Positions 11,313 to 54,719 of a DNA stretch of 57,809 nucleotides are shown one piece after another. The notes beneath the pieces were generated by a model. It was not told the DNA's origin. It saw only the letters and a program-made list of their open reading frames with translations, and made no database searches. The number at the start of each line of letters is the position of its first letter. Positions within the stretch are counted from its first letter, which is position 1. The translations under genes and the position numbers were made by a program. Location of the stretch: assembly GCA_949290395.1 (NCBI GenBank), contig CASERQ010000007.1, positions 1-57,809 of the forward strand, written 5' to 3'. This DNA comes from an uncultured bacterium. GTDB taxonomy: Bacteria; Bacillota_I; Bacilli_A; RFN20; CAG-826.

Positions 11313-11334
11313 GAATATAATAAGATTAATTAAT

Positions 11335-12307: not shown

Positions 12308-12332
12308 TATATAAAGAACTTTATTATTATTT

Positions 12333-12410
12333 AAATTGTAAAGATGATGTGATGTGAAAATTTACATTTTCTTTACAATTTTTTACATTTATATGATTTT
12401 TTCATAAATT
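12333..12410 (+). promoter_or_regulatory. Pho box and promoter of the pst operon
   Basis: Three direct TTTACA repeats start at 12361, 12372 and 12382, about one helical turn apart, as in PhoP/PhoB binding sites. The last can serve as -35, with TAAATT 17 bp downstream as -10. AAATTGTAAAG (12333-12343) is the exact inverse of CTTTACAATTT (12371-12381). The same arrangement precedes the Pit-type transporter at 46401-46457. The pst operon encodes its own PhoP/PhoR, so autoregulation under phosphate starvation is expected. Confidence 0.75.
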
Positions 12411-12447
12411 GACTTTAACTATAGTATTTAGCGTTAGGAGAAAAATT

Positions 12448-13419: not shown

Positions 13420-13436
13420 TTTCTAACTTTAGGAGT

Positions 13437-15783: not shown

Positions 15784-15784
15784 G

Positions 15785-28489: not shown

Positions 28490-29137
28490 ATGACTAAAAT
28501 ACAAAAACAAATAACAAAAATATGCTTAGCTGCTTTATTTTTAGCTTTAGGTTGGTTAATGCCAACATTAACAGGGCAAATTCCAGAATTTGGTAATATG
28601 TTTTGCCCAATGCATTTACCAGTAATGCTTTGTGGATTTATTTTAGGACCAGCTTATGGAGCCTTAATTGGGTTTATTACTCCACTTACAAGATCATTAA
28701 TTTTTGGAATGCCACCTATTATGCCAACTGCTCTTTCAATGGCTTTTGAACTTTTAACTTATGGATTCTTATGTGGCGCTATTTTCTATTTATTAAATAA
28801 ATATGCTAAAAAAATTCCTACAATTGCTACAGTTTATATTGCTTTAGTTAGTGCAATGATTGTTGGAAGACTTGTTTGGGGTTTTGTAAACTGCATGATT
28901 CTACTTTCGATGGGTCAAGGTTCAAAATTTACTGGAATTTATTTCTTAACCGAAGCTTTTGCAAACGCCTGGCCAGGAATTTTAATTCAACTTGTTGTTG
29001 TTCCAGCTATATTTGAACTCTTATATACACAAAAATTATTAACAAACTTACTTCCAGATTATGCAAAGATTTTTAAAGGAAAAAGATTTAACAAAGATAA
29101 TAACGATAATCAACAACCTGTTAGCGAAACAAACTAG
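28490..29137 (+). CDS. ECF transporter substrate-binding (S) component
   Basis: The 215-residue protein has about six membrane spans and the ECF S-component pattern: KICLAALFLALGWLMPTL with an AxxLA-type surface, GNMFCPMHLPVMLCGFILG, and GALIGFITPLTRSLIFGMPP. S components bind a vitamin or precursor and use a shared ATPase module encoded elsewhere. The substrate cannot be read from the sequence. The kinase gene starting inside its 3' end suggests that the imported molecule is phosphorylated. The last 25 residues are charged, low-complexity and overlap the kinase frame. Confidence 0.82.
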   Translation: MTKIQKQITKICLAALFLALGWLMPTLTGQIPEFGNMFCPMHLPVMLCGFILGPAYGALIGFITPLTRSLIFGMPPIMPTALSMAFELLTYGFLCGAIFYLLNKYAKKIPTIATVYIALVSAMIVGRLVWGFVNCMILLSMGQGSKFTGIYFLTEAFANAWPGILIQLVVVPAIFELLYTQKLLTNLLPDYAKIFKGKRFNKDNNDNQQPVSETN

Positions 29138-29636
29138 TGTAGTAGTTGCACTAGATGGGATGTGTACAAGTGGAAAATCTACATTGGCTGATGAACTTAG
29201 CCAATTTTTTGATACTCGAATAATTCATGTCGACGATTTTTATCTTCCACGAGGCACAAGAGATTTAAGCGTTTCTAATGATGGAAATATTAATTTAGAA
29301 AGATTAAAAGAAGAAATAATTGATAAATTAAACAACAATTCTTTAATTTATCGTAAATTTTCTTGTAAAGAACAAAAAATAAATGAAGAAGTGAGTTTAG
29401 TTAAAACAAAGCTTACCATTATTGAGGGAAGCTATTCTTTAAATCCTTATTTTGGTCATTACTATGATCTTTCTATATTTATGAAAATTGATATAGAAAC
29501 ACAACTTGAAAGACTCAAAATTCGTAATAAAGATAATTTTGAGGACTTTGTTAATAGATGGATTGTTCTCGAAAATAGATACAACAAACAATATAAAATT
29601 GAAGAAAAAGCCGATTTGATTATTGTAAACGATTAA
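29061..29636 (+). CDS. Uridine-kinase-like P-loop kinase
   Basis: The 191-residue cytoplasmic kinase has a Walker A GMCTSGKST, the HVDDFYLPR motif typical of uridine/pantothenate-type kinases and a lid region with RLKIRNKDNFEDF. Small-molecule phosphorylation is certain in type, but the substrate is not. The ATG at 29061 lies inside the S-component gene and reads its last 77 bases in another frame, without a ribosome site. The N-terminus LTKIITIINNLLAKQTSVVVALDG aligns well with kinases of this family, which supports the long overlap. Confidence 0.78.
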   Translation: MQRFLKEKDLTKIITIINNLLAKQTSVVVALDGMCTSGKSTLADELSQFFDTRIIHVDDFYLPRGTRDLSVSNDGNINLERLKEEIIDKLNNNSLIYRKFSCKEQKINEEVSLVKTKLTIIEGSYSLNPYFGHYYDLSIFMKIDIETQLERLKIRNKDNFEDFVNRWIVLENRYNKQYKIEEKADLIIVND

Positions 29637-29648
29637 TCTACTTTCATT

Positions 29649-29744
29649 CGAAAGAGTTTTTTATTATATACAAAACTAAATTTATAGAAAATGTAAATTT
29701 AAATACTTTCGTATATTGCTTTATAGGTTTCGAATATGTATGAT
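29649..29744 (+). promoter_or_regulatory. Promoter and DeoR-type operator sites of the tim-larA-nagB operon
   Basis: TTGCTT (29716-29721) and TATGAT (29739-29744), 17 bp apart, carry GTTTCGAA inside the spacer. CTTTCG (29706-29711) and CGAAAG (29649-29654, within CATTCGAAAG) lie upstream. The same hexamer occurs at the promoters of tauE, deoR and the LacX-like gene. Confidence 0.55.
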
Positions 29745-29769
29745 TTAAGTAAATGTAAGGGCTTTCACA

Positions 29770-30582
29770 GTGAAAAAAATTTACTTAAATCTTAAAAGAT
29801 TTGATATACCAAAAAGTTTCGGTGGTATAAGCAAATTAGAAAAAAACGAAACATTCGGATCTTATGTAACAGAAGGCATTGAAAAAATGAACCTTTCTTT
29901 ACCTGTTACAATCTATTTTCAAGAGTCTAATCTTTTACCTGCTTTAAGTGTAAACGACAAGGTTAGAATTGGTTGCCAAAGTGTACACTACGAAGATGTT
30001 AGTGTCGGTGGCAATTTTGGTGCGTTCACAACATTTAGAACCGCAAAAGCAATGAAAGGAATCGGAGTAACCGATACAATTATTGGCCACTGCGAAGAAA
30101 GAAAACACTTAACTCACCTTTTATCGCTTGGTGGAAATGGTGGCGACATCAATAAAGTTCTTAATGAAGAAATCAAAAGAGCTCAAGAAGCAGGATTAGA
30201 AGTTCTTTATTGTATTGGCGAAAAAGCTGAAGAACAAGACCACAAATACGATGTTTTAAGACATCAACTTGAAGTTGGATTAAACGGAGTTGATATTTCA
30301 AAAGTAACAATAGCTTATGAACCTGTTTGGGCTATTGGACCAGGAAAAGTACCTCCTGGAAGAGAATATATTGAAGACATCGCTCGTTTTATAAAAAGCG
30401 TTGTAAATATCCCTGTCGTATATGGTGGTGGATTAAAAATGGAAAATGCTGAAATGATTGCTTCAATTCCTGAAGTTGACGGTGGATTAATCGCATTAAC
30501 AAAATTTGGTGCTGATTTTGGATTCACACTTGTTGATTTTGAAGAAATCGTTAAGACATATGAGAAAGGATTAAAGAAATGA
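29770..30582 (+). CDS. Triose-phosphate-isomerase-like sugar isomerase
   Basis: The 270-residue cytoplasmic protein is a TIM relative with the catalytic set kept: N7 and K9 in YLNLKRF, H107 in IIGHCEER, E184 in AYEPVWAIG. The phosphate-binding parts are altered: the usual YGGS is YGGG, and the GG of the last loop is replaced in DGGLIALTKF (237-246). It belongs to a TIM-like side branch, probably isomerising another phosphorylated keto/aldo sugar. The start is GTG at 29770 after GTAAGGG. It overlaps the LarA-like gene by four bases and opens the operon. Confidence 0.82.
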   Translation: MKKIYLNLKRFDIPKSFGGISKLEKNETFGSYVTEGIEKMNLSLPVTIYFQESNLLPALSVNDKVRIGCQSVHYEDVSVGGNFGAFTTFRTAKAMKGIGVTDTIIGHCEERKHLTHLLSLGGNGGDINKVLNEEIKRAQEAGLEVLYCIGEKAEEQDHKYDVLRHQLEVGLNGVDISKVTIAYEPVWAIGPGKVPPGREYIEDIARFIKSVVNIPVVYGGGLKMENAEMIASIPEVDGGLIALTKFGADFGFTLVDFEEIVKTYEKGLKK

Positions 30583-32012
30583 AAGTAAATTTAGAGTATG
30601 GCGATGGCCAAGTCTTAGTCGAAGTACCAGAAGGTAGTGATGTATTTGAAACTGGCGTCACCGTTAAAGACCCTGAAGGAATCAAAGACGTTAAAAAAGC
30701 AACTTTAGATGCAATTTTACATCCACTCGATATGAAACCAATTAGTGAATTGGTTCATAAAGGAAGCAAAGTTACAATTGTTTTCCCTGATAAAGTTAAG
30801 GGCGGATTCCAAGATGATTCACACCGTAAAACAACAATCCCTCTATTAATTGAAGAATGTAAAAAATATGGAGTCGAAGAAAAAGATTTCTTACTCATTT
30901 GTTCAAACGGACTTCATAGAAAAAATAAGCCAGAAGAAATTAGAAGAATTTTAGGTGATGAAATCTTTGATAGATTCTGGGACAAAGGTCAAATTATTAA
31001 TCACGATAGTGAAGATTGGGATCATCTCGTAGATTGTGGATTTGAACCAAAATATAACGCAAAAGTTGTCATGAACAAATATGTTTATGATAGCGATATC
31101 TGTTTCTTAATTGGACATGCTCAAGGTAACCCATATGGTGGATATAGTGGTGGTTATAAACACTGTGCTACTGGTATCTCAAACTGGGAATGTATCTCTG
31201 CTCACCACTGTCCAGCAGTCATGCATAGAGATGATTTCGTCCCTGTTACATCACATTCATTAATGAGAAAGAAATTTGATGCAATTGGTGAATGGATGGA
31301 ACATTCAATGGGCAAGAAATTCTTCTGTGTTGATGCAGTTTTAGATTCATTCTCACATCAAATCGCAGTATTTGCTGGTGAAGCTCATAGAGTTCAAGAA
31401 GAAAGCTGGAAAATAGCTGATAAGAGAACTTATGTCAAATGGGCAAAGAAAAAATATGATGTTATTATCTTTGGTTTACCAAATGATTTCCAATATGGAA
31501 CAAGACAAGGAAGAAACCCAATTCTTGTTGAACAAGCTATCTCTGCTCAAGTCGTTAGATTAAAGAGAGTTATGGCTGATAACCCTGTAATTATTGCTTT
31601 ATCTCAATGTGATGGAGACTTCGGCGATGAAGAATTCCCAGCAATGATTGACGTCTATAATTACTTTGAAAAACATGGTAATACTCTTCCAGAAATTGAA
31701 GACTATTATAAATCAATGGATGTACCAAAATATGTTGAGCTTTATCGTCATCATTATGCATTCCATCCATATCATGCTTTCTCAATGATCTCCTGCGCAC
31801 ATATTGCAGAAAGAGATTGTAAAGCAATTTATATCGTAGGTGCTAAAGATCCAGGAACCGCAAGAGGAATGGGCATGAAAACAAGAAGCACAGTCATGGA
31901 AGCTTATGAAGATGCAAAGAAATATGTTGGAGATCATCCAAATGTCCTTGTCCTTCCTATGACTTTCAAGAGACCATCAGTACATCTTTGTATGGAGGAT
32001 GATAAAGAATGA
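30579..32012 (+). CDS. LarA-like (nickel-pincer lactate racemase family, DUF2088) protein
   Basis: The 477-residue protein has the LarA two-domain layout: N-terminal DUF2088 part with GLHRKNKPEE (H113, like LarA H108), then GGYSGGYKHCATGIS (K194, like the cofactor lysine K184) and a His pair ISAHH (H210, like H200). The position of LarA H174 appears to be Asn here. LarA proteins racemise or epimerise 2-hydroxy acids using a nickel pincer cofactor made by LarB, LarC and LarE; none of these is in the window. It probably acts on a sugar acid. The stop overlaps the next gene. Confidence 0.8.
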   Translation: MKVNLEYGDGQVLVEVPEGSDVFETGVTVKDPEGIKDVKKATLDAILHPLDMKPISELVHKGSKVTIVFPDKVKGGFQDDSHRKTTIPLLIEECKKYGVEEKDFLLICSNGLHRKNKPEEIRRILGDEIFDRFWDKGQIINHDSEDWDHLVDCGFEPKYNAKVVMNKYVYDSDICFLIGHAQGNPYGGYSGGYKHCATGISNWECISAHHCPAVMHRDDFVPVTSHSLMRKKFDAIGEWMEHSMGKKFFCVDAVLDSFSHQIAVFAGEAHRVQEESWKIADKRTYVKWAKKKYDVIIFGLPNDFQYGTRQGRNPILVEQAISAQVVRLKRVMADNPVIIALSQCDGDFGDEEFPAMIDVYNYFEKHGNTLPEIEDYYKSMDVPKYVELYRHHYAFHPYHAFSMISCAHIAERDCKAIYIVGAKDPGTARGMGMKTRSTVMEAYEDAKKYVGDHPNVLVLPMTFKRPSVHLCMEDDKE

Positions 32013-32830
32013 TGAAAGAAGAAATTCTCCACATTAAAGGAGAAGATATCAAAAAAGGTAAAATTCCTGTTGATATCTATAAAGATAAAGAAGGCGCATT
32101 TTCTGGAATGGCTGATATGATGGTTGAAGCTATCAAAGAAAATAACGCAAAACATAAAAGAACATTATTTATTTGTCCATTAGGACCAATTGGTCAATAT
32201 AAATACTTTGCAAAGAGAGTAAATGAAGAAAGAATTTCCTTAAAAGATGTTACTTTCATCAATATGGACGAATATATGCTTGATGATAAAACAATCTGTG
32301 GAACAGATTATAAATTATCATTCAAGAAAACTATGTATGAACTTTGCTATAATAAAATAGACAAAGATCTTATAATGCCAGAAAGTCAAAGAATCTTCCC
32401 TACTTTAGATAATGCTGATTATATCGATGAAGTTATAAAAGATCATGGCGGAGTCGATGTTTGTTTTGGTGGAATTGGGATTACTGGTCATATGGCCTTC
32501 AATGAACCACCAGAACCAGGTGAAAAAGTTGATGAAGAAGAATTTGTAAAATCAAGAACAAGAGTTGTTAAAATCTCTAGAGAAACAAGAGTTGTTAATT
32601 CATTTGATGATTTTGATGGCGCTTACCCACTTGTTCCTGAATATGCTGTTACAATAGGCTTAAAAGAAATTCTTGAAAGCAAAAAAGTCAGATTATTCTG
32701 CTTTAGACCATGGCATAAATTCGTCGTTAGACGTGCTGCTTTTGGAGAATGTAGTATCGATTTCCCAGCTTCATTACTCCAAAAACATCCTGATGCAAGG
32801 ATAGGAATCAGCGAAGAACTCGCTGAGTAG
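32009..32830 (+). CDS. NagB-like glucosamine-6-phosphate deaminase/isomerase family protein
   Basis: The 273-residue protein keeps NagB landmarks: FINMDEYML (catalytic base Asp), and GITGHMAFNEPPEP with H161 and E166. The ring-opening Asp next to the His (GNDGH in NagB) is Thr159 here, so the substrate or reaction probably differs from glucosamine-6-phosphate deamination. It sits between the LarA-like and ABC transporter genes. ATG at 32009 overlaps the previous stop; the ATG three bases later is equally possible. Confidence 0.82.
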   Translation: MMKEEILHIKGEDIKKGKIPVDIYKDKEGAFSGMADMMVEAIKENNAKHKRTLFICPLGPIGQYKYFAKRVNEERISLKDVTFINMDEYMLDDKTICGTDYKLSFKKTMYELCYNKIDKDLIMPESQRIFPTLDNADYIDEVIKDHGGVDVCFGGIGITGHMAFNEPPEPGEKVDEEEFVKSRTRVVKISRETRVVNSFDDFDGAYPLVPEYAVTIGLKEILESKKVRLFCFRPWHKFVVRRAAFGECSIDFPASLLQKHPDARIGISEELAE

Positions 32831-32839
32831 GAGAAATAT

Positions 32840-33784
32840 ATGAAGGAAAAAACATCGTTTAAGGACAAAATGAAGGTGTTCAAAGAAAAAATTACACCAA
32901 AATTTGTCAAAGACTATTATCAAAAGAAAGAGGATGAAATTGCAGCAGTCGATTTAGCTAATCTTTCTAAACCAGTTAACGATGCTGCTACTAGTGGTCC
33001 TAAGAAAATGAAAGATTTTTCTATTTGGCCAGGTTGGAAGTCAGCATTAGTAGGTCTTGGTGGCGTTATATTCATCATTGCTATTTGGTGGATTTATGCG
33101 GCTGTTTGTGAAGCGACCGGAAAAACTTCTTTCCTTTCTTCACCAATTGCTGTTTGTGAAGCTTTTTATAATCAAGCAATCGTAACGAGTAATCTTTGGA
33201 CTCATTTAGGATACTCTTTACAAAGAATCATTGTTGGTTATTTAATTGCTTTAGTTGCGTCAATTCCTGTTGGCTTCTTGATGGCTTGGTATAAACCAGT
33301 CAGAGCATTCTTAGATCCATTTATTCAATTCTTAAGATGTGTTCCACCAATTGCTTATGTTCCAGTTGTTGTTGCACTTTTTGGAACAAATGAATCATCA
33401 AAATATTTCATTATTTTCTTAGCTGTTTTCTTAACAATGACTGTTACTATTTATCAAGGTGTTAAGAATGTTGATTTAACTCTTGTTAAAGCAGCTTATA
33501 CATTTGGCGCTAGAGATCGTAACTTATTCATGGGCGTTATCGTTCCAAGCGCATTCCCATTTATCTTAACTGCTATGAGATTAGGTATTGGTGCTGCTAT
33601 GACAACACTTGTTGCTTCCGAACTTACTGGTACCGCCTATGGTCTTGGTGCATTTATTAATAGCCAAGGTGGTCAATTAATTATGGACAACTGTATCATG
33701 GGTATTCTCGTTTTAGGTATATTCGGTATTGTTTTCGATAAAGGTTTACTTGCTTTCGAAAAACGTATTACTAGATGGAAATAA
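32840..33784 (+). CDS. ABC transporter permease, NitT/TauT (SsuC-like) type
   Basis: The 314-residue permease has about 60 cytoplasmic N-terminal residues, then six spans and the coupling motif AAYTFGARDRNLFMGVIVPSAFP, with LRCVPPIAYVPVVVALFG typical of the nitrate/taurine/sulfonate family. It imports an organic anion or small polar compound with the ATPase and lipoprotein downstream. An AGTAGGAGAAA ribosome site precedes the ATG. Substrate is unknown. Confidence 0.9.
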   Translation: MKEKTSFKDKMKVFKEKITPKFVKDYYQKKEDEIAAVDLANLSKPVNDAATSGPKKMKDFSIWPGWKSALVGLGGVIFIIAIWWIYAAVCEATGKTSFLSSPIAVCEAFYNQAIVTSNLWTHLGYSLQRIIVGYLIALVASIPVGFLMAWYKPVRAFLDPFIQFLRCVPPIAYVPVVVALFGTNESSKYFIIFLAVFLTMTVTIYQGVKNVDLTLVKAAYTFGARDRNLFMGVIVPSAFPFILTAMRLGIGAAMTTLVASELTGTAYGLGAFINSQGGQLIMDNCIMGILVLGIFGIVFDKGLLAFEKRITRWK

Positions 33785-33798
33785 GGAGTGACTAAAAT

Positions 33799-34707
33799 AT
33801 GGAAAACAAAGGAAAAGTTGTTATTAAAATTGATAACGTTAAAAAGATTTACCATGTTGAAAATGGTGATGATGTAGTTGCTCTTAACGGTGTTAATCTT
33901 GAAATTAGAGAAAACGAATTTATTTGTGTTGTCGGCCCATCAGGATGTGGTAAAACAACTCTCTTAAATATTATTGGCGGACTTGAACAACCAACAGAAG
34001 GCCAAGCAACAATTCATGATCGTCCAATTCTTGGACCTGGTCCTGATAGAGGAATTATTTTCCAACAATATGCTTTATTCCCATGGCTTACTGTTAAAAA
34101 GAATGTCATGTACTCAACAAAATTTATTAAACATGAAGTTCCCGTAATGGAAAAGAATCCAGAAACAGGCAAATTTGAGCCAGTATATACTACCGACGGA
34201 AATGGTAATAAAGTGCCTCAAATGAAAACTGTTAAATATACAAAAGCTGAAAGAGAGGCTATCGCCAAAAAATACATTGACATGGTTCAATTGAGTGCAT
34301 TTGAAAACAAGTATCCAAAAGAACTCTCTGGTGGTATGAAACAAAGAGTCGCTATCGCTAGAGGCTATGCTCTTAACTCTGATGTTTTATTACTTGATGA
34401 ACCATTTGGTGCTCTCGATGCTCAAACAAGATCTCAACTTCAAGAAGATTTATTGAGAACTTGGGAAAAAGAAAGAAAAACATGTTTCTTTATTACTCAC
34501 GATGTTGATGAATGTGTCTTGCTTGCTTCAAGAGTTATTATCATGAGCGCTAGACCAGGACAAGTTAAAGAAATTATTGATATTGATTTACCTTATCCGC
34601 GTTCACAAGCTACTAAACTTGATCCTAAATTCCAAGAATATAGAAATCACATTTGGGATGTCGTTTATAAAATGTATGTTAGTAGCGGAAGCATTAACAA
34701 CAAATAG
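33799..34707 (+). CDS. ABC transporter ATPase, NitT/TauT (SsuB-like) type, with insertion
   Basis: The 302-residue ATPase has Walker [11 protein letters not shown]-loop [12 protein letters not shown], signature LSGGMKQR, Walker [12 protein letters not shown] and the switch His in FITHD. About 40 extra residues ([19 protein letters not shown] and more, about 113-152) lie in the helical subdomain before the signature, where ordinary members have a short link. Otherwise the length is typical. It follows the permease by 14 bases. Confidence 0.92.
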
Positions 34708-34772
34708 GTTTATACAAATTTAAAATTTGTGAAATATAATTTAATTTTTTAAAAAAAGGAGTAAAAATAAAA

Positions 34773-35876
34773 ATGAAAAAATTAAAATTATTTGGTTTAT
34801 TAGGTGCTGTCGCAGCGCTTGGTGTAATGGCAACATCTGTTACAAGCTGTGGTGGCGATGATAACACAGTTCGTTTAGGTTTACACTTAAACTTCGGTGC
34901 AGGCGCTGGTTATAGTGCTATTCAACAAGGTTACTTTGAAGAAGAAGGTGTTACAATTCAACAACAAACAGGTCAAGGGCCAGCATTAGCAGCTTCTTTA
35001 GTTTCTGGACAACTTGATGTTTCTTTCATGGGAAATGGTGTTGCTTGGAATTACTTCACTGAAAGACAAGAAATCACTTTAGTTGCTCTCGATAACTTAA
35101 CTAACGATGATAAATTAATCGCTAGCAAACAAGGCAAAGGTAAAGAGTTAACAATTGATTCTTCTGTTGAAGATCTTGCTAACGCATTAAGAGGAGCAAA
35201 AGTTGCTCTTGACTTGGATGCTACACCTAGAGCTTTCTTTACAAGTTTATTAACTGAAATTAATAAATCATTAGATGCTTCTGAAAAAATTTGGTTCCAA
35301 GATGTTGCTGAAAATAAAATCCCAGCAGGACTTGAAAATTATGACCCAGCTAATATGATTAATGTTAGCACAGCAACTAATGCTAACGTTGGTGTTGCAA
35401 TGCAAAATCATGAATATGATTTCTGTGTTGCTTTCGCACCTGTTTCTACAACTCTTATCAAAGATACAGCTAACTTCACAATGGTTGCTTCAACATTAAC
35501 ACATATGCCAGACAGCTATACACCATCAACATGGGCTGTTAATACTGCATGGCTTGAAACTCATGAAGAATTATTTGCTAAATTCATGAGAGGCCTTGTT
35601 AAAGGTATGAATTTCAGACGTGATAATCCAGTTCAATCTGAAAAAGATGTTGAAACATTAACCGCAGGTTCTTTCAAAGCAACAGGCGCTGTTGACATTG
35701 CTGAATGGTTAGGCGCTGAAGAACAACTTGAATTACTTGAAAGTGGCGACGCTATGAAGTATGTTGAAAATATCAGAGCTTCACAAACTTCAGAAGAAAT
35801 GTCTGATAAAGTTACAGCAGAAGACGCAGCTGATTTCTCTTATTTAAAAACAGCTTGTGAATCTTTAGTAGATTAA
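34773..35876 (+). CDS. NitT/TauT-family substrate-binding lipoprotein
   Basis: The 367-residue protein has a signal ending in VTSCGG and the two-lobe fold of NMT1/SsuA-like binding proteins (VRLGLHLNFGAGAGYSAIQQGYFEEEGV, split; LVSGQLDVSFMGNG). These proteins bind sulfonates, nitrate, thiamine precursors or aromatic acids. It supplies the permease and ATPase just upstream. A strong AAAAAAGGAG site precedes the ATG, and a terminator follows, ending the operon that begins with the TIM-like gene. Confidence 0.9.
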   Translation: MKKLKLFGLLGAVAALGVMATSVTSCGGDDNTVRLGLHLNFGAGAGYSAIQQGYFEEEGVTIQQQTGQGPALAASLVSGQLDVSFMGNGVAWNYFTERQEITLVALDNLTNDDKLIASKQGKGKELTIDSSVEDLANALRGAKVALDLDATPRAFFTSLLTEINKSLDASEKIWFQDVAENKIPAGLENYDPANMINVSTATNANVGVAMQNHEYDFCVAFAPVSTTLIKDTANFTMVASTLTHMPDSYTPSTWAVNTAWLETHEELFAKFMRGLVKGMNFRRDNPVQSEKDVETLTAGSFKATGAVDIAEWLGAEEQLELLESGDAMKYVENIRASQTSEEMSDKVTAEDAADFSYLKTACESLVD

Positions 35877-35901
35877 TTAAATAATTTAATTAGCAATAAT
35901 C

Positions 35902-35927
35902 GGAAGGCTTAAACGCCTTCCTTTTTA
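35902..35927 (+). terminator. Terminator of the tim-larA-nagB-ABC operon
   Basis: GGAAGGC and GCCTTCC pair around TTAAAC, followed by five T. Confidence 0.9.
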
Positions 35928-36095
35928 TATGCGCATAATAAGATTGTATTTCATTCCATTCTTTTTTATTCAGAGTTATTTAAACGTTTCATATTTAACT
36001 TATGAAACTATGTAAAATAAGTTTTAATTAGATGAAGATAAATCGCCTCCTTTATATATACAAAGTAGGTAATTGTAAAATAAATGAAATAAAGA

Positions 36096-36125
36096 CAAAA
36101 AAATCGCCATTTTGTGGCGATTTTG
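36096..36125 (-). terminator. Terminator of the TauE/SafE gene
   Basis: AAATCGCCA and TGGCGATTT form a 9-bp stem around a 5-base loop. On the minus strand it is followed by a T-run. Confidence 0.85.
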
Positions 36126-36148
36126 TTTTTATTTACAGTTTTTACTTA

Positions 36149-36997
36149 TTAAATAAGAGTAAGCGAAGAATTAATAATGAGGTAAATATTAATAGCGATA
36201 ATTGCAACAGTTGTGGCCATATAAACTATTTGGACGCCCTTGTTTGACATCTTCTTATTAAGCCATGTTCCAAGTAAAGAACCAATAATTGAAATAGGAA
36301 CTAAGATAATAAGAAAAATCCACCATGATTGATCAGCAGCAGTTGGAAGTTGATCAATTGTAAATAAAGTAACAAATGTTCCATCAATTCCAGCCATAAC
36401 TATCTTAGAAAGTTGAGAGAAGATAATTGTGATAAGAGAATTGATTGCGGCTTGTTTCATGCTCATTCCAAAGAATAAAAGTAATACAGCAACGTTGATT
36501 GGACCTCCACCAATTCCTAAGAAAGTTGAACAAATTCCAAGGAAGATGCCAATTACGATAGTTACAATAAAGTTATTGATATGCATAACTTTGCCTTTTG
36601 GAAGGAAAATTTGCATATAAATTAAAACAAAGATTAATAAAGCAATTAAAATTGCTGATTGGATTATGATTAAAACATCTTTATTTGAGGCATCTTTTAC
36701 AAACTGGAATAAAAATTGACCAATTACGCCACCAACAACAGCACCAATTCCAAGATAAACTGCTGTTTTCCAGTTTTCAATTTTGCTTTTTGAAGCGATG
36801 TGACGAATGATAGATGTGGAAGTTCCAAAAACAACGCACATTGTTGAAATCATATTAGTGATTTCTGGGGTTGAAAAATAACCGAAAGCATCTAGTACAG
36901 GTCTAATAATAACCCCTCCACCTATACCAGCAATAGCGCCAATAATAGAAGCTATTATGACGACTAAAGGAAAAATAAAATAATAAACCATATTCAT
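36149..36997 (-). CDS. TauE/SafE-family anion exporter
   Basis: The 282-residue membrane protein has about eight spans and the two TauE/SafE family repeats (IIGAIAGIGGGVIIRPVL; FLGICSTFLGIGGGPINVAV). Members export sulfite, sulfoacetate or other small organosulfonates. Its presence next to a NitT/TauT importer is a hint, not proof, that the pathway handles a sulfonated compound. A CATTCGAAAG site lies between the predicted -35 and -10, so it probably belongs to the DeoR regulon. Confidence 0.88.
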   Translation of the reverse strand: MNMVYYFIFPLVVIIASIIGAIAGIGGGVIIRPVLDAFGYFSTPEITNMISTMCVVFGTSTSIIRHIASKSKIENWKTAVYLGIGAVVGGVIGQFLFQFVKDASNKDVLIIIQSAILIALLIFVLIYMQIFLPKGKVMHINNFIVTIVIGIFLGICSTFLGIGGGPINVAVLLLFFGMSMKQAAINSLITIIFSQLSKIVMAGIDGTFVTLFTIDQLPTAADQSWWIFLIILVPISIIGSLLGTWLNKKMSNKGVQIVYMATTVAIIAINIYLIINSSLTLI

Positions 36998-37006
36998 ATT
37001 TTAGAC

Positions 37007-37135
37007 CATTCGAAAGCATTATTAAAGAATGTATTATTTATAAATAAATAATACATTCCATAATTTATGAAACGAAACTATAAACTATTAAAAGTTTCGT
37101 TTCGATTTGCAAAACGAAAGTTTTTATAGTATAAT
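37007..37135. promoter_or_regulatory. Divergent tauE/deoR control region with palindromes
   Basis: A 14-bp perfect inverted repeat (37027-37040/37045-37058) lies centrally. On the deoR side GAAACGAAACT (37069-37079) and AGTTTCGTTTC (37093-37103) form an 11-bp inverted repeat just before TTGCAA (37107-37112), with CGAAAG (37115-37120) in the 17-bp spacer and TATAAT at 37130-37135. On the tauE side CGAAAG (37011-37016) lies in CATTCGAAAG. These look like DeoR binding sites. Confidence 0.65.
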
Positions 37136-37153
37136 TTCCTTAGGAGATTTAAA

Positions 37154-37909
37154 ATGAAAATAAATAAAAGACAAGGAGAAATAGTAGAATTAGTAGATAA
37201 TGAAAATCAAGTAACAGTCAAAGAATTATCAAAAAAACTCGGAGTTAGCGAGGTTACAATCAGAAAAGATTTAGATATTTTAAGTGAATATGGCATTTTA
37301 ATTCGTCATCATGGATATGCTTTAAAAAAGAATACTGCAGATATTACGAATCGTCTTTCAATCAATTACGAAACGAAATGTCATATTGCCAAAAAAGCAA
37401 ATTCATTAATAGGTTTTAATGAAACGGTTTTGATAGCTGGAGGTTCAACTTGCGCCCTTCTTGCAGAAGAAATTGTTAAGACAAAACCAAGCGTCACAAT
37501 TATTACCAACTCAATTTATATAGCCGAACACGTTTCTAAAATTGGAAATAATAAGATAATTTTATTAGGCGGGGAATATCAAGCAGACGCTCAAGTTATG
37601 GTTGGACCACTTGTTAGATCTTCAGTTAGACAATATTATGTTGATAAAATCTTCCTTGGAACTGATGGATTTGAAAAGAATGTTGGCTTTATGGGAAGTG
37701 ACGTTTTAAGAACTGAAGCTGTTAAAAACATGGCAGAAAGCGCAAGAAACATCATCATAATTACTGATTCTTCGAAGTTTTCAAAAAGAGGTCTTTTAGT
37801 ACAATTCACACAAAAAGAACCTTCTAGGATTATTACAGATACAAAATTACCAGTTGAATACCAAGAATTCTTTAGTTCAATTGGCGTGCCATTAACTCTT
37901 GTTGATTAA
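37154..37909 (+). CDS. DeoR-family transcriptional regulator
   Basis: The 251-residue regulator has the N-terminal DeoR winged helix (RQGEIVELVDNENQVTVKEL, SEVTIRKDLDILSEYGILIRHHG split) and the C-terminal sugar-phosphate-sensing domain (GSTCALLAEEIV, TDGFEKNVGFMGSD). DeoR proteins repress sugar catabolic genes and respond to a phosphorylated intermediate. The surrounding genes and recurring CGAAAG sites make it the likely local regulator, including of itself. Its stop overlaps the convergent LacX-like gene by four bases. Confidence 0.9.
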   Translation: MKINKRQGEIVELVDNENQVTVKELSKKLGVSEVTIRKDLDILSEYGILIRHHGYALKKNTADITNRLSINYETKCHIAKKANSLIGFNETVLIAGGSTCALLAEEIVKTKPSVTIITNSIYIAEHVSKIGNNKIILLGGEYQADAQVMVGPLVRSSVRQYYVDKIFLGTDGFEKNVGFMGSDVLRTEAVKNMAESARNIIIITDSSKFSKRGLLVQFTQKEPSRIITDTKLPVEYQEFFSSIGVPLTLVD

Positions 37910-38748
37910 TCTATATTTTTAAATGTTAAAGAGTAAGAGAATGACTTAGTTTCATTCTCTTTTAATTTATTTATAGCAATTCTTTGAGAAAGATCTTTGC
38001 TTTCTTCTATATAGTTAGAAATTCCCCACCGTGGTTCAACACAAACAAAGTCTCCTTTATTTGGATTTGACCAGATTGCAAAATAAGGAGCGTCAAATTC
38101 ATAATTTACTGTAATATTTTTAACGCCTGTATAAAGTTCAAGGTTTTCTTTTTTACCACTAAAAACAAAAGTGTCTCTTTTTTTGAAAGAATCTTTTTTA
38201 AGATTAACGCAGTTCATTAAAATATTATCTTTGTTATTTTGTTCAATAAACCCGCTAATTAAAGGTAAAAATTGATAATCTTTATCAAAATTAATTAAAC
38301 CATTATAGCTATAAGCTCTTATTCCAGTGTGACTCCCATAAGAGAAATATATTTCTTTATTATCGATATTTTTAATTTCAGAAGTCACAAGAAGTTTATT
38401 TTTGATAAGTTTATAAGTTAAAGAAAATTCAAATTTAAAAGGATATTCTAAAAGAGTATTTTCATTAGATCTTGTTGATAATTTTAAAGTCGAATCATCA
38501 ATTTTATTGACACTTAAAAGAGTTGAACGGATAAAACCATGTCTCATTTTTAAGTTGAATTCTTTGTTTTCGTATTTAAATTTTCCAGCACCTATCAAAG
38601 GGAAAATTTGAACATCTTGAAATGGCCAGGAACCTTCTTCAACTTGATAAAGTAATTCGTCATTAGTTTCTTTAAAAATGATTGAAGTTAAGACAGCGCC
38701 CTGTGGATTAATACTTACTTTTAAAAATTCATTTTCGATCTTTTCCAT
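37906..38748 (-). CDS. Aldose 1-epimerase family protein (LacX-like)
   Basis: The 280-residue protein follows the galactose mutarotase fold: NPQGAVLTSIIFKE at the start, PLIGAGKFKYENKEF, MRHGFIRSTL with the catalytic-type His, a second His in SYGSHTGIRAY and an acidic residue near VCVEPRWG. LacX-type members convert sugar anomers or hexose-6-phosphates. A GGAGTT ribosome site precedes the ATG. It is divergent from nagA and convergent with deoR, in the same putative regulon. Confidence 0.87.
   Translation of the reverse strand: MEKIENEFLKVSINPQGAVLTSIIFKETNDELLYQVEEGSWPFQDVQIFPLIGAGKFKYENKEFNLKMRHGFIRSTLLSVNKIDDSTLKLSTRSNENTLLEYPFKFEFSLTYKLIKNKLLVTSEIKNIDNKEIYFSYGSHTGIRAYSYNGLINFDKDYQFLPLISGFIEQNNKDNILMNCVNLKKDSFKKRDTFVFSGKKENLELYTGVKNITVNYEFDAPYFAIWSNPNKGDFVCVEPRWGISNYIEESKDLSQRIAINKLKENETKSFSYSLTFKNID
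37936..37966 (+). terminator. Terminator of deoR, inside the 3' end of the convergent LacX-like gene
   Basis: AGAGAATGA and TCATTCTCT pair around CTTAGTT and are followed by TTTAATTT. The stem is inside codons of the minus-strand gene. Confidence 0.65.
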
Positions 38749-38865
38749 ACATAACTCCTAAGCTTTCTAACGAAAGAAAGCAATAATCTTTAGGTCTTGA
38801 AACACGTTATTTTAAGACATATCTATGATATAATTTTAGTTAAATAAGGAAGCTTTTTAAACAAA
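38749..38865. promoter_or_regulatory. Divergent LacX-like/nagA control region
   Basis: The palindrome-like GCTTTCTAACGAAAGAAAGC (38762-38781) contains CGAAAG and lies on the LacX side. For nagA an extended -10 TGATATAAT (38826-38834) is clear; no good -35 was found. Confidence 0.5.
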
Positions 38866-39993
38866 ATGAAAAAAGAATTTAAAAATATTAAAACTTTGAC
38901 CGAACATGGTTATATTAATGCTGATTTAGTTGTTGAAGACGGAAAATTTCTTTCTATAAAAGAAACAAAATCAAGTGACAAAACAAATGAAGGAAAAATA
39001 ATTATTCCTGGATTTATTGACGAACACACTCATGGTGCAGATGGGTTAGATTTTACAACTGTTAAATCCATTGAAGAAATCGAGAAAATATTAGATTTTT
39101 ATGCAAAGCATGGTGTTACTAGTGTTTTACCAACTTTACTCACTGAACGCGATGAAGTTGTTTTTAAACAACTTGAATTGATCTATCAAGCAAGTTTAAG
39201 AAATCCAATGATTAAAGGAATTCATATGGAAGGTCCTTTCCTTTGTAAAGAATATAAAGGTGCACAACTTGAAAGTTGTTTACAAACACCAACTCCAGAA
39301 AAATCTAAGATTTTTATTGAAAAATCACATGGTCTTTTAAAATTAATGACTATTGCTCCAGAAAATGAAGGCAGTGAAGAAACTATCAAATATTTAACTG
39401 AACATGGAGTAAGAGTTACATTAGGACACAGCGCAGCTGATTTTGATGATACGACAAAAGCTTTAAAAAGTGGCGCATGTTGTATGACTCACCTTTTTAA
39501 TGCGATGAAAGGAATCCATCAACATACCCCATCTATTTGCTCTGCTGGTTTATATTATGATGATTTTTATACTGAAGTTATTTTAGATGGAATTCATGTA
39601 CATTCTGAAATGGTAGAGTTCATTAGAAGAATTAAAGGAAATGATAGAGTAATTGGAATTACAGATTCTCTAATGGCTGCAGGTTTACCTGATGGGAATT
39701 ACTTTATTGGCGAAACTCCAATAACCGTGAAAAATCATGACTGTGTTATCACAGAGACTGGAGTTAGAGCCGGATCAACTCTTGACATGAAACGTGCATT
39801 CGATAATGTTAAGAAGTTCACAAATATTGATGATTTAGAAGCAAGTAAAATTTGCTCTTTAAATTCAGCCAAGATGCTTGGACTTGACGATAAAGTAGGG
39901 TCAATTAAAGAAGGCAAAAACGCCGATTTCATAGTGCTTAATAGCAACTATGAAATCGAGGAAGTTTATATAAATGGAGAAAGAAAAGCATGA
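38866..39993 (+). CDS. nagA: N-acetylglucosamine-6-phosphate deacetylase (NagA family)
   Basis: The 375-residue amidohydrolase has the metal-site motif GFIDEHTHGADG, GIHMEGPFL (metal Glu), LGHSAAD and THLFNAMKGIHQHTP (His ligands), and the catalytic Asp in GITDSLMAAGL. It removes acetate from an N-acetyl amino sugar 6-phosphate. The length is normal. It overlaps the phosphofructokinase gene by four bases. The sequence does not tell GlcNAc from GalNAc or a modified sugar. Confidence 0.93.
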   Translation: MKKEFKNIKTLTEHGYINADLVVEDGKFLSIKETKSSDKTNEGKIIIPGFIDEHTHGADGLDFTTVKSIEEIEKILDFYAKHGVTSVLPTLLTERDEVVFKQLELIYQASLRNPMIKGIHMEGPFLCKEYKGAQLESCLQTPTPEKSKIFIEKSHGLLKLMTIAPENEGSEETIKYLTEHGVRVTLGHSAADFDDTTKALKSGACCMTHLFNAMKGIHQHTPSICSAGLYYDDFYTEVILDGIHVHSEMVEFIRRIKGNDRVIGITDSLMAAGLPDGNYFIGETPITVKNHDCVITETGVRAGSTLDMKRAFDNVKKFTNIDDLEASKICSLNSAKMLGLDDKVGSIKEGKNADFIVLNSNYEIEEVYINGERKA

Positions 39994-41150
39994 TGAAAAA
40001 CGTAATTATTGCTCATGGTGGAGCACCAACTGCAGTTATTAACGCTTCTTTATATGGAGCAATTAAAGAATTAAAAGAAAGTGGATTTGATGGTAAAATC
40101 TTTGCTCCAAGATTTGGTAGCGATGGTTTGTACAATGAAGATTTCATTGATTTAACCAACCTTACTGATGAAGAACTTGAAATTTTAAAGGAAACTCCAG
40201 GGAGTGCAATCGGTTCTTCTAGATTCCCTCTTTATGAAAAAGAATATCGTCATATTGTTGGTGTTTTAATTAAACATAATATTGGGTATGTTCTTTTCAC
40301 GGGTGGAAATGGAACAATGGATACCATTGGAAACATTTACAAATACGCTAAAGAAAGAGGAGTTGATGTAACCTGTGTTGGAATTCCAAAGACAATTGAT
40401 AACGATATTGGTGTGACTGATCACGCTCCAGGATTTGCAAGTTGCGCAAAATATATTGCAAATACAGTTTCTTTCTGTGCCCAAGATGTTAAAGGCCTTC
40501 CAATTCATGTTTCCGTAATTGAAGTTATGGGAAGAAACGCTGGATGGCTTGCAGCAAGTAGTGCTTTAGCTAGAAAGAAAAAGGGTGATGCACCTCATTT
40601 AATTTATTTCCCAGAAATTCCTTTTGATGAAAATGAATTCATTGAAGACGTCAAAAAATGTTGGGAAAAAAGACATGGTGTTGTGGTTGTCGCTAGCGAG
40701 GGATTAAAATACGCTGATGGTACACCAATTGTTAAGCCAATATTTAAAACAGAAAGAGCGACTTATTTTGGTGATGTTTCAACACACTTAGCAACCTTAA
40801 TTATTGAAAAACTTGGTATTAAAGCAAGAAGTGAGAAACCTGGCCTTATTTGTAGATGTGATAGAAGTCTTGTTTCTAAAGTTGATCAAGAAGAAGCCAT
40901 TTTAATGGGCAGAACTTCTATGAAAGCCGCATTAAACCATACAAATGGGGTTATGGCTGGTTTAAAAAGAATTTCTACCAAACCATATAAAGTAGAACCA
41001 ATTTTAATTCCAATTGAGAAAGTCATGATGACAGAAGCAACTTTCCCATTGAAATATATTAAAGATAAGCATGATGTTACTGATGAATTCATCGAATGGC
41101 TCAAACCACTTGTTGATGAAGTTCCTGATAGTATCACATTCTTAGATTAA
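39990..41150 (+). CDS. 6-phosphofructokinase, pyrophosphate-dependent type
   Basis: The 386-residue enzyme has the PFK fold with GGAPTAVINASL at the start and the catalytic PKTIDNDI (133-140). ATP enzymes have Gly where this has Lys134 (PGTIDND), so PPi is the probable phosphoryl donor. The nucleotide loop is GGNGTMDT, and MGRNAGWLA and ICRCDRS contribute substrate residues. It may act on fructose-6-phosphate or a related ketose phosphate. ATG at 39990 overlaps the nagA stop; the ATG at 39993 is equally possible. Confidence 0.88.
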   Translation: MMKNVIIAHGGAPTAVINASLYGAIKELKESGFDGKIFAPRFGSDGLYNEDFIDLTNLTDEELEILKETPGSAIGSSRFPLYEKEYRHIVGVLIKHNIGYVLFTGGNGTMDTIGNIYKYAKERGVDVTCVGIPKTIDNDIGVTDHAPGFASCAKYIANTVSFCAQDVKGLPIHVSVIEVMGRNAGWLAASSALARKKKGDAPHLIYFPEIPFDENEFIEDVKKCWEKRHGVVVVASEGLKYADGTPIVKPIFKTERATYFGDVSTHLATLIIEKLGIKARSEKPGLICRCDRSLVSKVDQEEAILMGRTSMKAALNHTNGVMAGLKRISTKPYKVEPILIPIEKVMMTEATFPLKYIKDKHDVTDEFIEWLKPLVDEVPDSITFLD

Positions 41151-41171
41151 TTAAATGGAAGAAGGAAAAAA

Positions 41172-42008
41172 ATGAAAAAAGTAGTTGTTATTACAGGTGG
41201 CGGAAGCGGAATGGGACTTGCCACCATTAAAGAATTAGGTAAAGATTACACCCTTATTATTACTGGAAGAACAGTTTCTAAACTTGTAAAAGCAAGCGAA
41301 GAATATACAAAAGAAGGCTATGAAATTTATCCTTTTGCATGTGATGTTTCTAAAAAAGATGAAGTTTTAAAGTTGGCGGAATTTGCAAAAAGTAAAGGCG
41401 ATGTTGTCGCTTTAATTCATGCAGCTGGTGTTTCTCCACACATGGGGAATGCAGAATCTATTATCAAGATTAATGCACTTGGAACTCACCTTGTTGACCA
41501 AGCTTTTAAAGATATCATGAATGAAGGAAGCGTCATTTTAAATGTTTCTTCTATGGCAGCTTATATGCTTCCTAATATGTTACTTCCAAGAAAACACTAT
41601 ACTAAAATTTTTGAAAATGAAGCCAAATTTGTTGAGAAATTAGTCAAAAAGTCTAGAATGTTCGGAAGCAAAATGGAAACAAGCCTTGCTTATCCAATCT
41701 CTAAAAACTTTGTTTGCTGGTACACAAAAAGAGTTGCTAAAGATATGTATAAAAAAGGCATTAGAGTTATCTCAGTTTCTCCAGGAAACTTTGAAACACC
41801 AATGGGAGAACTTGAGAGCGCTCAAGGCAAAGCTTTCCTTAAAAACGGAGCAATTCAAAGATTTGGAAAGGTCGAAGAAATCGCTTTGCTCTTTAAATAT
41901 TTAATTGATCCAAGACTTGGATATTTAACAGGTGAAGACATCATTTGCGATGGTGGATGTATTGGTTCATTAAATTCATTCTCTAAAAAAGAACAAAAGA
42001 ATTTCTAA
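41172..42008 (+). CDS. Short-chain dehydrogenase/reductase (SDR)
   Basis: This 278-residue NAD(P)-dependent oxidoreductase has the cofactor motif TGGGSGMG, a DV pair in FACDVSKKD, an NVSS strand with catalytic Ser, and a Tyr in SLAYPISKNF with the catalytic Lys four residues on (YxxxK). Compared with most SDRs, it has an insertion of about 35 residues between Ser and Tyr (PNMLLPRKHYTKIFENEAKF). It follows the PFK gene in the same operon. Substrate is unknown but probably a sugar or sugar acid. Confidence 0.85.
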   Translation: MKKVVVITGGGSGMGLATIKELGKDYTLIITGRTVSKLVKASEEYTKEGYEIYPFACDVSKKDEVLKLAEFAKSKGDVVALIHAAGVSPHMGNAESIIKINALGTHLVDQAFKDIMNEGSVILNVSSMAAYMLPNMLLPRKHYTKIFENEAKFVEKLVKKSRMFGSKMETSLAYPISKNFVCWYTKRVAKDMYKKGIRVISVSPGNFETPMGELESAQGKAFLKNGAIQRFGKVEEIALLFKYLIDPRLGYLTGEDIICDGGCIGSLNSFSKKEQKNF

Positions 42009-42023
42009 TTAAAAAGCAAAAAT

Positions 42024-42060
42024 AAAAGTGTTCCTGGAATGTACTTAGGAACACTTTTAA
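42024..42060 (+). terminator. Terminator after the SDR gene
   Basis: AAAAGTGTTCCT and AGGAACACTTTT form a perfect 12-bp stem around an 11-base loop, followed by AATTT. It could also serve the minus-strand gene. Confidence 0.75.
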
Positions 42061-42136
42061 TTTACAAAAATTAGATTTAATTTAACAAAATAGTTGAAAT
42101 TTGCAAGTTTTTTGAAAAATTTTATATATAATAAGA

Positions 42137-42580
42137 TTAATATACTACGACTTTTTTGTTTTCTTTTATTAACTTAATAATAATCATAGCCATAAGAGCT
42201 GTTAAAACTAAAATCGTAATTAAATTAAGTATTAATCCTAAAATCCAGTTTGATGAGATGACATCTAAAAATATTGTATATGCGATCATTAGCGCTAAAG
42301 AAACTGAAAATAAAATTAAGCCGAATTTAATAAAATTAAATTTAAAAATAGTTAACCAGTAAGCTAAGCCAAATAAAACAAAACTAACTAGTAAAGGAAG
42401 CACACAATAAAGCATTACTGTATCAGGTGCTATAACAAATCCTTGTCCATATGGAGTATGTGGACTTGGGATAGAATTTGGGAAAGCCGCATAGATAGCA
42501 CATAAAATCCCGGCTACTGACAAAACTAATACTAATAAATATTTAAGACTTGATTTAAATACCTTCATAAAAAGCTTCAC
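42137..42580 (-). CDS. Small membrane protein of unknown function
   Basis: The 147-residue protein has four hydrophobic segments separated by short loops, with an external-looking loop NSIPSPHTPYGQGFVI after the first. No family signature is recognised. No ribosome site is obvious; the ATG follows ATGAAGGT-like codons of its own N-terminus. It lies alone between the SDR and aldolase genes. Length and topology are all I can support. Confidence 0.6.
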   Translation of the reverse strand: MKLFMKVFKSSLKYLLVLVLSVAGILCAIYAAFPNSIPSPHTPYGQGFVIAPDTVMLYCVLPLLVSFVLFGLAYWLTIFKFNFIKFGLILFSVSLALMIAYTIFLDVISSNWILGLILNLITILVLTALMAMIIIKLIKENKKVVVY

Positions 42581-42655
42581 GAATTTATGATATCAAAGTA
42601 AAAAACGCTTTTCATTTTTTTTTTATAAAATGTGGATATAAAAAATTTGCAAATA

Positions 42656-42690
42656 AAAACCTGGTTCAAGGAGCAGCGAACCAGGTTTTT
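42656..42690 (-). terminator. Terminator of the aldolase gene
   Basis: AAAACCTGGTTC and GAACCAGGTTTT form a perfect 12-bp stem around a 10-base loop, flanked by T-runs on the minus strand. Confidence 0.85.
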
Positions 42691-42704
42691 GCGTTTAGAA
42701 AGAA

Positions 42705-43808
42705 TTATTTTTTATAAATATAATAGGCATCGCCAACGCAGCCAAACTCAACATTTGCTGTTAAAACGATTTCTTTAACCGCTTTTTCCATTAATGGAAT
42801 GAGGTCCTTAATTTCGCCTGTAATTCCTTTATTGGTTTCAAGTTCATTAATATAATCTTTTAAATAATACCTATATTCAAATGAATCTCTCTTTTCAACC
42901 ATTAAAGGATAAACTTTTGAACCTTCCTTCTTTTCTGGATGGGCTTCGAACCATTCTAATATGTTTCTTGTGGTTGCAAGTCTAATATCGGTATCCATGT
43001 TGATTTTTGAAATACCAGAAGGAATAACTTCTTTTAATTGTTCAACTGGAATACCATGTCCATGGACATTTCCACCAAGAGAATTAATTTCATTAACAAT
43101 ATATTGAGGGACTAAACTTGATCCATGGGAAACTAAAACAGCATCAATTCCTTCGTGAGCCATGTTTTCCATAGTAGCAATAGCGATTTCTTTTCTTAAT
43201 TTTACGTTGTCGCCTTTAACAGCGCCATGTTTTGTTCCATAAGAAATAGCTAATAAATCAACTCCAGTTTTCTTTAAGAAATCAACTGCAGTCATTGGGT
43301 TTGTGTAAGTAGAAGAAGCAGCAAAAACGTGATCTTCAACACCTGCTAAAACACCAAGTTCAGCTTCAACTGATGCATCATGTTTATGAGCATATTGAGC
43401 AACTTTTTTAGCAAGAGCGACGTTTTCTTCATATTCAAGTGCACTTCCGTCGATCATTACGCTATTAAAACCAGCGTTAATACAAATTTTACATGTTTCA
43501 AAACTTCTACCATGATCTAAGTGAAGTGAAACTGGAATGAATGTTTTTTCAGCTAATTTTTTGACATAAGCAGCAATTCTTTTTGCACCAAGTTTCTTTT
43601 CTTCAATTGTTCCGTGTAAAAAGTCTGGATTTCCACCAATGAACGCAAGTCCTGGTTCAGCAACTTGAATGATAGCAGCACAACGTAATTCTTCGCAAGC
43701 TTCAATTATGGCTTTTGCTTGGCAAAGAGCATTGACATTAAAAGCACCATGAGCAAATTTATGATCACGTGCATATCTTAAAATATCTTTTGATTTTATG
43801 TATGGCAT
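42705..43808 (-). CDS. Class II ketose-bisphosphate aldolase (fructose/tagatose-bisphosphate type)
   Basis: The 367-residue zinc aldolase has HLDHG (metal and catalytic region), EAELGVLAG, AISYGTKHG, VLVSHGSSLVPQY and KINMDTDIR, the full class II set. It cleaves a ketose-1,6-bisphosphate into two trioses. At 367 residues it is longer than short tagatose-type enzymes and nearer to the class IIA length. Together with the PFK and TIM-like genes it could close a sugar pathway; whether it is the housekeeping aldolase is open. AGGAGGCC precedes the ATG. Confidence 0.92.
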   Translation of the reverse strand: MPYIKSKDILRYARDHKFAHGAFNVNALCQAKAIIEACEELRCAAIIQVAEPGLAFIGGNPDFLHGTIEEKKLGAKRIAAYVKKLAEKTFIPVSLHLDHGRSFETCKICINAGFNSVMIDGSALEYEENVALAKKVAQYAHKHDASVEAELGVLAGVEDHVFAASSTYTNPMTAVDFLKKTGVDLLAISYGTKHGAVKGDNVKLRKEIAIATMENMAHEGIDAVLVSHGSSLVPQYIVNEINSLGGNVHGHGIPVEQLKEVIPSGISKINMDTDIRLATTRNILEWFEAHPEKKEGSKVYPLMVEKRDSFEYRYYLKDYINELETNKGITGEIKDLIPLMEKAVKEIVLTANVEFGCVGDAYYIYKK

Positions 43809-47566: not shown

Positions 47567-47577
47567 AGGTGATAAAT

Positions 47578-53132: not shown

Positions 53133-53133
53133 G

Positions 53134-54718: not shown

Positions 54719-54719
54719 C

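Follow-up and report, generated by a model that had tools for sequence, protein, structure and literature searches.

We analyzed a window of 57,809 nt from an uncultured bacterium of the genus CAG-826 (contig CASERQ010000007.1 of assembly GCA_949290395.1) and within it a gene cluster at positions 29,649-43,808. This cluster encodes an isomerase similar to triosephosphate isomerase (TIM), a protein similar to the nickel enzyme LarA, NagB-like and NagA-like proteins, a pyrophosphate (PPi)-type phosphofructokinase (PFK), a class II aldolase, an ABC importer, a TauE/SafE exporter and a DeoR-family regulator. The cluster is real, conserved, DeoR-linked and catabolic. The main new result is that its enzymes have lost phosphate-binding residues, a feature that is absent from the 2025 papers on this LarA subfamily. 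The sequences suggest, with a probability that we put at about one half, a pathway similar to the Embden-Meyerhof-Parnas (EMP) route for sugars whose last carbon bears an anionic group other than phosphate, most probably a sulfo group.

Loss of phosphate-binding residues in the cluster enzymes

Individual residues were assigned their roles by what is established for Bacillus phosphoglucose isomerase (PGI) and for NagB, TIM, PfkA and NagA of E. coli, with E. coli NagB, TpiA and PfkA as references in the alignments. The TIM-like proteins keep the catalytic Lys, and His95 and Glu165 are present in 54/54 aligned sequences, while the phosphate gripper is altered throughout: Ser211 is Gly in 54/54, Gly232 is Ala in 49/54 and Gly233 is Leu in 54/54, with a new Arg or Lys near the gripper in 52/54. 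The NagB-like proteins retain Asp72 and His143 (45/45) as well as Glu148, and have lost the GG(T) phosphate loop (deleted in 44/45), Arg172 (Asp, Gly or Asn in 42/45) and Lys208 (His in 43/45), where one of the 45 rows is the canonical NagB of locus L054. Asp141 is replaced by Thr or Asn in 45/45, and is Thr in the window protein. All 46 PFK sequences have His in place of the 6-phosphate residue Arg162 and Leu or Ile in place of His249, but keep the PPi-type Lys124 (the alignment numbering is one higher than the residue numbers quoted here). Metal and catalytic motifs are kept in the NagA-like proteins, in which the phosphate-binding Arg is His in 38/39. Finally, the PGI-like proteins of related loci keep their catalytic residues, with the SGTTT phosphate loop changed to [DN]F[NAE]T[LVI] in 13/13.

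Canonical copies served as controls. The second TIM of the host keeps the phosphate motifs YGGSV and VGGASL (read from the translation), the two other PFKs of the host keep their phosphate residues, and in L054 the phosphate loop is intact in a second NagB. The cluster aldolase keeps its C1-phosphate site, as expected if the PFK phosphorylates C1. Since five enzyme families have lost phosphate residues and kept those for catalysis, a terminal sugar group other than phosphate is the simplest interpretation, and one that we consider well supported by these alignments. The plain hexosamine-6-phosphate route proposed in an earlier note on this DNA, which was made from the sequence alone, is not supported, as its NagA-, NagB-, PFK- and TIM-like proteins are all without phosphate-binding residues. 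The loss of phosphate ligands with retention of catalysis in several enzymes of one cluster may provide a comparative flag for glycolysis-like pathways that handle non-phosphate groups.

Organization of the cluster

The genes are open frames, and their families were assigned by profile matches. The features are as follows.

29637-29769, + strand: promoter region of the TIM-LarA operon, three CGAAA/TTTCG boxes, candidate DeoR operator
29770-30582, + strand: TIM-like isomerase (PF00121, 117 bits)
30579-32012, + strand: LarA-like single-His nickel-pincer nucleotide (NPN) enzyme (Lar_N PF09861, 118 bits)
32009-32830, + strand: NagB-like isomerase (TIGR00502, 101 bits)
32840-33784, + strand: ABC permease, TauC/SsuC type (profile match)
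33799-34707, + strand: ABC ATPase, nitrate/taurine (Ssu/Tau) type (profile match)
34773-35876, + strand: lipoprotein substrate-binding protein (SBP), NMT1/SsuA fold (weak profile match; predicted model)
36149-36997, - strand: TauE/SafE family exporter, divergent from deoR (PF01925)
37095-37119: candidate DeoR operator TTTCGTTTCGATTTGCAAAACGAAA, between tauE and deoR (box search)
37154-37909, + strand: DeoR-family regulator, YciT/AgaR-like (scores under the YciT and AgaR cut-offs)
37906-38748, - strand: LacX-like aldose 1-epimerase (mutarotase; profile match)
38866-39993, + strand: NagA-like deacetylase (TIGR00221, over cut-off)
39990-41150, + strand: PPi-type PFK (PRK14072, over cut-off)
41172-42008, + strand: short-chain dehydrogenase/reductase (SDR), probably outside the core
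42705-43808, - strand: class II ketose-bisphosphate aldolase (profile match)

The operon of TIM-like, LarA-like and NagB-like genes and a TauT-type importer that the earlier note described is thus present at 29770-35876 with matching families, as are its neighbors TauE, DeoR, LacX-like epimerase, NagA, PFK and class II aldolase at 36149-43808. The 101 bits of the NagB-like protein are far under the equivalog cut-off of 236.9, and the TauE match scores 124.5 bits against a gathering score of 32.6. Overlaps of 4 bp join TIM to LarA, LarA to NagB and NagA to PFK, which fits co-translation. The aldolase is approximately 60% identical to one that lies within the LarA operon of L027/L028. The SDR gene is not conserved, as L024, a close relative, has none in its cluster, and the part given to the SDR in the earlier note is not supported. 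The claim that the window holds no sugar kinase stands for the vicinity of the cluster, but a glycerol-kinase-like gene is found at 55853-57331. The host genome is 1.37 Mb and sits among small-genome uncultured Bacilli; no match indicating plasmid carriage of the cluster was found.

Conservation across genomes

A scan of a genome collection gave 251 LarA relatives; we retrieved and read the loci of 80. Adjacency was counted by tblastn, since calling of open reading frames (ORFs) undercounts TIM where antisense ORFs displace it; partial contigs depress the counts. The gene next to LarA was TIM-like in 75 of the 80 loci, and PFK (46), NagB-like (41), NagA (37), aldolase (37), EPIM (29), TauE (29) and PGI-like (13) genes were also adjacent. 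Outside the genus of the window (63 loci) the numbers were 58 for TIM-like, 33 for PFK, 24 for NagB-like, 23 for NagA, 33 for aldolase and 14 each for EPIM and TauE. The 80 loci span Bacilli, Clostridia, Lachnospiraceae, Spirochaetes, Anaerolineae and one Endozoicomonas bin, while close LarA orthologues occur in 8 of 296 genomes of the class, in three families. Co-occurrence of these families across Bacillota, which had been set beforehand as the point on which the proposal could fail, was therefore observed, and in other phyla as well. Gene order differs between lineages; in Lachnospiraceae it is LacI-PFK-TIM-LarA-NagB-NagA-aldolase-permease-ATPase-SBP-histidine kinase-response regulator. In two Spirochaetales bins (L083 12180-13970 and L087 12180-13970) MCRA-family (PF06100) and TetR-like genes lie directly 3' of LarA.

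The LarA-like protein and its cofactor

Structures of a single-histidine, NPN-dependent LarA subfamily were solved in 2025 (PDB 9q3k and 9q2u for LarASp, 9q3j for LarABw; Gatreddi et al., PMC12393405, PMC12611868). In this subfamily Asn replaces the catalytic His174, and its role in carbohydrate metabolism is a guess (PMC12393405, PMC12611868). By its sequence the window protein is a member: it aligns from end to end with LarASp (9q2u/9q3k; 603 bits) and also with LarABw (9q3j), and keeps H113, K194 and H210, equivalent to H108, K184 and H200, together with N184 as the Asn replacing His174. The NPN lysine and the nickel histidine are invariant in the family alignment (84/84) and Asn184 is present in 83/84. 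Y306 and H399 are also conserved, and the glycolysis-like neighbors are shared. A difference from LarASp is its ligand-contact residue His306, which is Gln305 in the genus of the window (20/84 sequences); this genus-specific Gln305 is carried on a loop that reads YGTRQGRNP in the window protein.

The window host also differs from the LarASp subfamily in having no detected LarB, LarC or LarE, none of which scored over the cut-off in its genome or in congeners; this is a trait of the host and does not bear on the family to which the protein belongs. LarC was not found in the relatives of the class that bear close orthologues, LarE was under the cut-off in 16/16 genomes tested and LarB in 16/16 LarC-less hosts tested. 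Among other hosts LarC is present in 14/23, and LarB, LarC and LarE occur, at times adjoining LarA. As the residues that bind NPN never vary, hosts without LarC presumably acquire NPN by another route.

Directly 5' of the operon, at 28490-29636, are genes for an energy-coupling factor (ECF) transporter S component and an overlapping P-loop nucleoside-kinase-like protein. The pair is kept with TIM-LarA in the genus and lies near LarA in L071 and L097; it is possibly a salvage pair for a cofactor or vitamin. Among 50 genomes, ECF/kinase pairs were also found in LarC-positive genomes and were missing from several LarC-negative ones, so that NPN salvage by this pair fits the absence of LarC only in part and is a lead at most.

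Indications of a sulfur-containing substrate

TauC is the nearest match of the window permease. For the SBP, a predicted model (pLDDT 90) ranks SsuA/TauA first, with SsuA as the best match (Z 21.6, root mean square deviation 3.9 A, 289 aligned residues). Loci of relatives contain SsuA-family SBPs, TauE and a chemoreceptor in which a methyl-accepting chemotaxis protein is joined to an SsuA-type domain; for the L112 SBP, TauA is the closest protein of solved structure. TauE permeases have been described for both sulfoglycolysis and C2-sulfonate metabolism (PMC8873060). The importer, the chemoreceptor fusion, the repeated TauE and the DeoR-type boxes together point to a sulfur-containing sugar, and we think it fairly likely that the terminal group is sulfur-based. 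The earlier suggestion that the substrate is sulfonated or acidic, drawn from the TauT-type importer and TauE, is supported.

Sulfatases of the SGSH_C type are encoded in 3 of the 80 loci (L075, L106 and L113). In L113 (Lacrimispora amygdalina, 2949-14729) two sulfatases, a ketohexokinase-like gene, LarC and a radical-SAM/SPASM gene surround FBA-TIM-LarA. With three loci, the link of sulfatases to the cluster is weak and was not adopted.

Three full-length loci (L059, L069 and L093) are without TIM. Each encodes TauE, a Tau-type or TRAP importer, and a dehydrogenase of the tartronate-semialdehyde/hydroxyisobutyrate/sulfolactaldehyde reductase family, which is found in 0 of 75 TIM loci (Fisher p=1.2e-4). 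This mutual exclusion, seen in three loci, suggests a C3-level role for LarA, with TIM and the dehydrogenase as alternative suppliers.

Proposed pathway and alternatives

In the pathway that we propose, whose substrate, step order and products are all inferred from operator boxes, gene content, altered residues and conservation, the Ssu/Tau-type ABC importer would take up the sugar. A mutarotase, followed for N-acetylhexosamine forms by NagA and the NagB-like enzyme, would lead to one ketose, which in relatives may be fed by PGI-, ManA- or FucI-type isomerases. The PPi-type PFK would phosphorylate C1 of the 6-sulfo-ketose, and the class II aldolase would yield a C3-sulfo aldehyde (sulfolactaldehyde or the analogous sulfate ester) and dihydroxyacetone phosphate (DHAP), the latter passing into glycolysis. 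The C3-sulfo fragment would be isomerized by the TIM-like enzyme and would then undergo an additional step of the hidden-redox type, catalyzed by the single-His LarA-like NPN enzyme. TauE/SafE would export a C3-sulfo product or sulfite/sulfate, and DeoR would repress the operon and tauE. A catabolic system ending in trioses, as first suggested, is thus retained in the form of a PFK/aldolase-type EMP-like pathway giving DHAP. It is rather doubtful that the LarA-like enzyme, with the TIM-like protein or the sulfolactaldehyde-reductase-type dehydrogenase, frees the sulfo group from the C3 fragment for export of sulfite by TauE, and equally so that such a release would run without oxygen or glycyl radicals. 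If true, such a release would give NPN its first role outside epimerases and would represent a novel type of C-S (or C-O-S) cleavage. The NPN cofactor is known to form an adduct with sulfite (PMC12611868).

Several observations weigh against a sulfo-sugar pathway. NrtA and CmpA follow SsuA closely for the SBP model (Z 20.1), so that the fold alone leaves the ligand unfixed, and TauE and NMT1-fold proteins belong to broad families, with TauE in just 14 of the 63 loci outside the genus. A Dielma locus uses a phosphotransferase system (PTS), which normally delivers phosphorylated sugar, and the aldolase keeps Arg residues that we regard as ligands of the 6-phosphate. The window cluster shows no sulfoquinovosidase, the genome not having been searched for one. 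A Gfo/Idh/MocA protein of L054 (f55) was considered as a GH188 sulfoquinovosidase and rejected, as there is no GH188 chain among its solved relatives. Furthermore, NagA and NagB need an N-acetylated amino sugar, and we know of no abundant 6-sulfonated GlcNAc, which favors sulfate esters.

The same logic could indeed apply to a sulfate ester such as GlcNAc-6-sulfate, Glc-6-sulfate or Man-6-sulfate from mucins and sulfated glycans, with glyceraldehyde-3-sulfate as the intermediate and sulfate released at the end. The NagA/NagB, PGI-like and ManA-like modules suit common 6-O-sulfated sugars, Ssu/Tau-type importers take sulfate esters in some bacteria, and the sulfatases of L075, L106 and L113, the last with radical-SAM/SPASM beside LarA and LarC, are in keeping with it. 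However, sulfatases in 3/80 loci are few, a sulfatase would normally strip the group ahead of catabolism, the minimal loci with a sulfolactaldehyde-reductase-type dehydrogenase suit C3-sulfonates better; we regard this alternative as unlikely, if worth keeping in view. A literature search for sulfate-ester intermediates gave nothing. A carboxylate in place of the sulfo group is improbable. Here uronic or N-acetylhexosaminuronic acids would be split into tartronate semialdehyde and DHAP; the TIM-like enzyme would convert the former to hydroxypyruvate, and LarA would act on the 2-hydroxy acid, the usual kind of LarA substrate (PMC11770544). The dehydrogenase of the TIM-less loci does score slightly higher with tartronate-semialdehyde reductase models than with the sulfolactaldehyde model, and a xylose-isomerase-like protein adjoins LarA in L084, but the TauE exporters and Ssu/Tau-type importers would be left unexplained, and LarASp has a very different active site and showed no lactate racemization (PMC12393405).

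Ordinary catabolism of phosphorylated amino sugars or hexoses, with the LarA-like protein acting on a phosphosugar as the LarASp authors guessed, agrees with their neighbor analysis and modelled C9 phosphosugar ligand (about 316 Da), with the score of the window NagA over the equivalog cut-off and with the lack of another NagB in the host. It is nevertheless improbable as well, given that phosphate residues are lost in five enzyme families and kept in the canonical copies and that the cluster has neither a GlcNAc kinase nor a PTS. That unrelated genes adjoin by chance, which the lineage-specific differences in order and strand might suggest, is scarcely credible when TIM adjoins LarA in 75/80 loci and PFK, NagA, NagB-like and aldolase genes recur in several phyla.

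Relation to known systems

Sulfo-EMP2 (SqvD, SqiK, SqiA) uses a PF00365 kinase, a PF01116 aldolase and a PF02952 isomerase (PMC9594981). The window cluster likewise has a PF00365-family sugar-1-kinase and a PF01116 class II aldolase, and sulfoglycolysis has known examples with ABC importers and with TauE-type permeases (PMC9594981, PMC8873060). It differs in the added TIM-like, LarA-like, NagA and NagB-like proteins and, in relatives, the PGI-like isomerase. No PF02952 (SqvD) isomerase was found among the ORFs of the window cluster, the whole genome not having been searched; family-level PF02952 matches lie beside TIM-LarA in L108 and inside the clusters of L073 and L074. The sulfoquinovosidase YihQ and SqvB (DUF4867) were likewise not seen among the genes of the window cluster, to which the look for them was confined. 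NagA, the NagB-like protein, PFK, aldolase and the DeoR/AgaR-like regulator resemble GlcNAc/GalNAc (Nag/Aga) systems, from which the cluster differs by its lost phosphate residues, the replaced NagB D141, the lack of a PTS or kinase and the addition of LarA and TauE. The system had been called undescribed; the LarA subfamily and its glycolysis-like neighbors were published in 2025 (PMC12393405, PMC12611868), but the pathway, the sulfur link and the phosphate-site loss are not there. If true, our proposal gives a directly testable function to an orphan nickel-enzyme subfamily with structures but no substrate, and adds an anaerobic route of sulfosugar breakdown for bacteria of the gut, digesters and sediments.

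Regulation

The boxes CGAAA/TTTCG were strongly enriched in the loci of the genus, with 48 against 3.7 expected 5' of TIM and 66 against 3.1 expected 5' of deoR; control regions gave 2 against 0.9 and 5 against 3.3 expected. These counts are not independent, since the loci are related and since TIM and DeoR have a single intergenic stretch in common within each of L026, L050 and L051. In the window the palindrome TTTCGTTT-N9-AAACGAAA is at 37095-37119. The boxes between tauE and deoR make it likely that TauE is co-regulated with the TIM-LarA operon, and the enrichment at both sites bears out the DeoR control that had been predicted.

Genes surrounding the cluster

By translation, FAD-dependent glycerol-3-phosphate-dehydrogenase-like genes and the glycerol-kinase-like gene lie 3' of the cluster (51687-57331). 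Translations likewise indicate a Pst-PhoU-two-component phosphate uptake set at 12409-19662, a Pit-like transporter with a PhoU-like partner, separate from the Pst set, at 46484-48204, and a TnpB/IS605-type transposase-like ORF at the edge of the window (56-1342).

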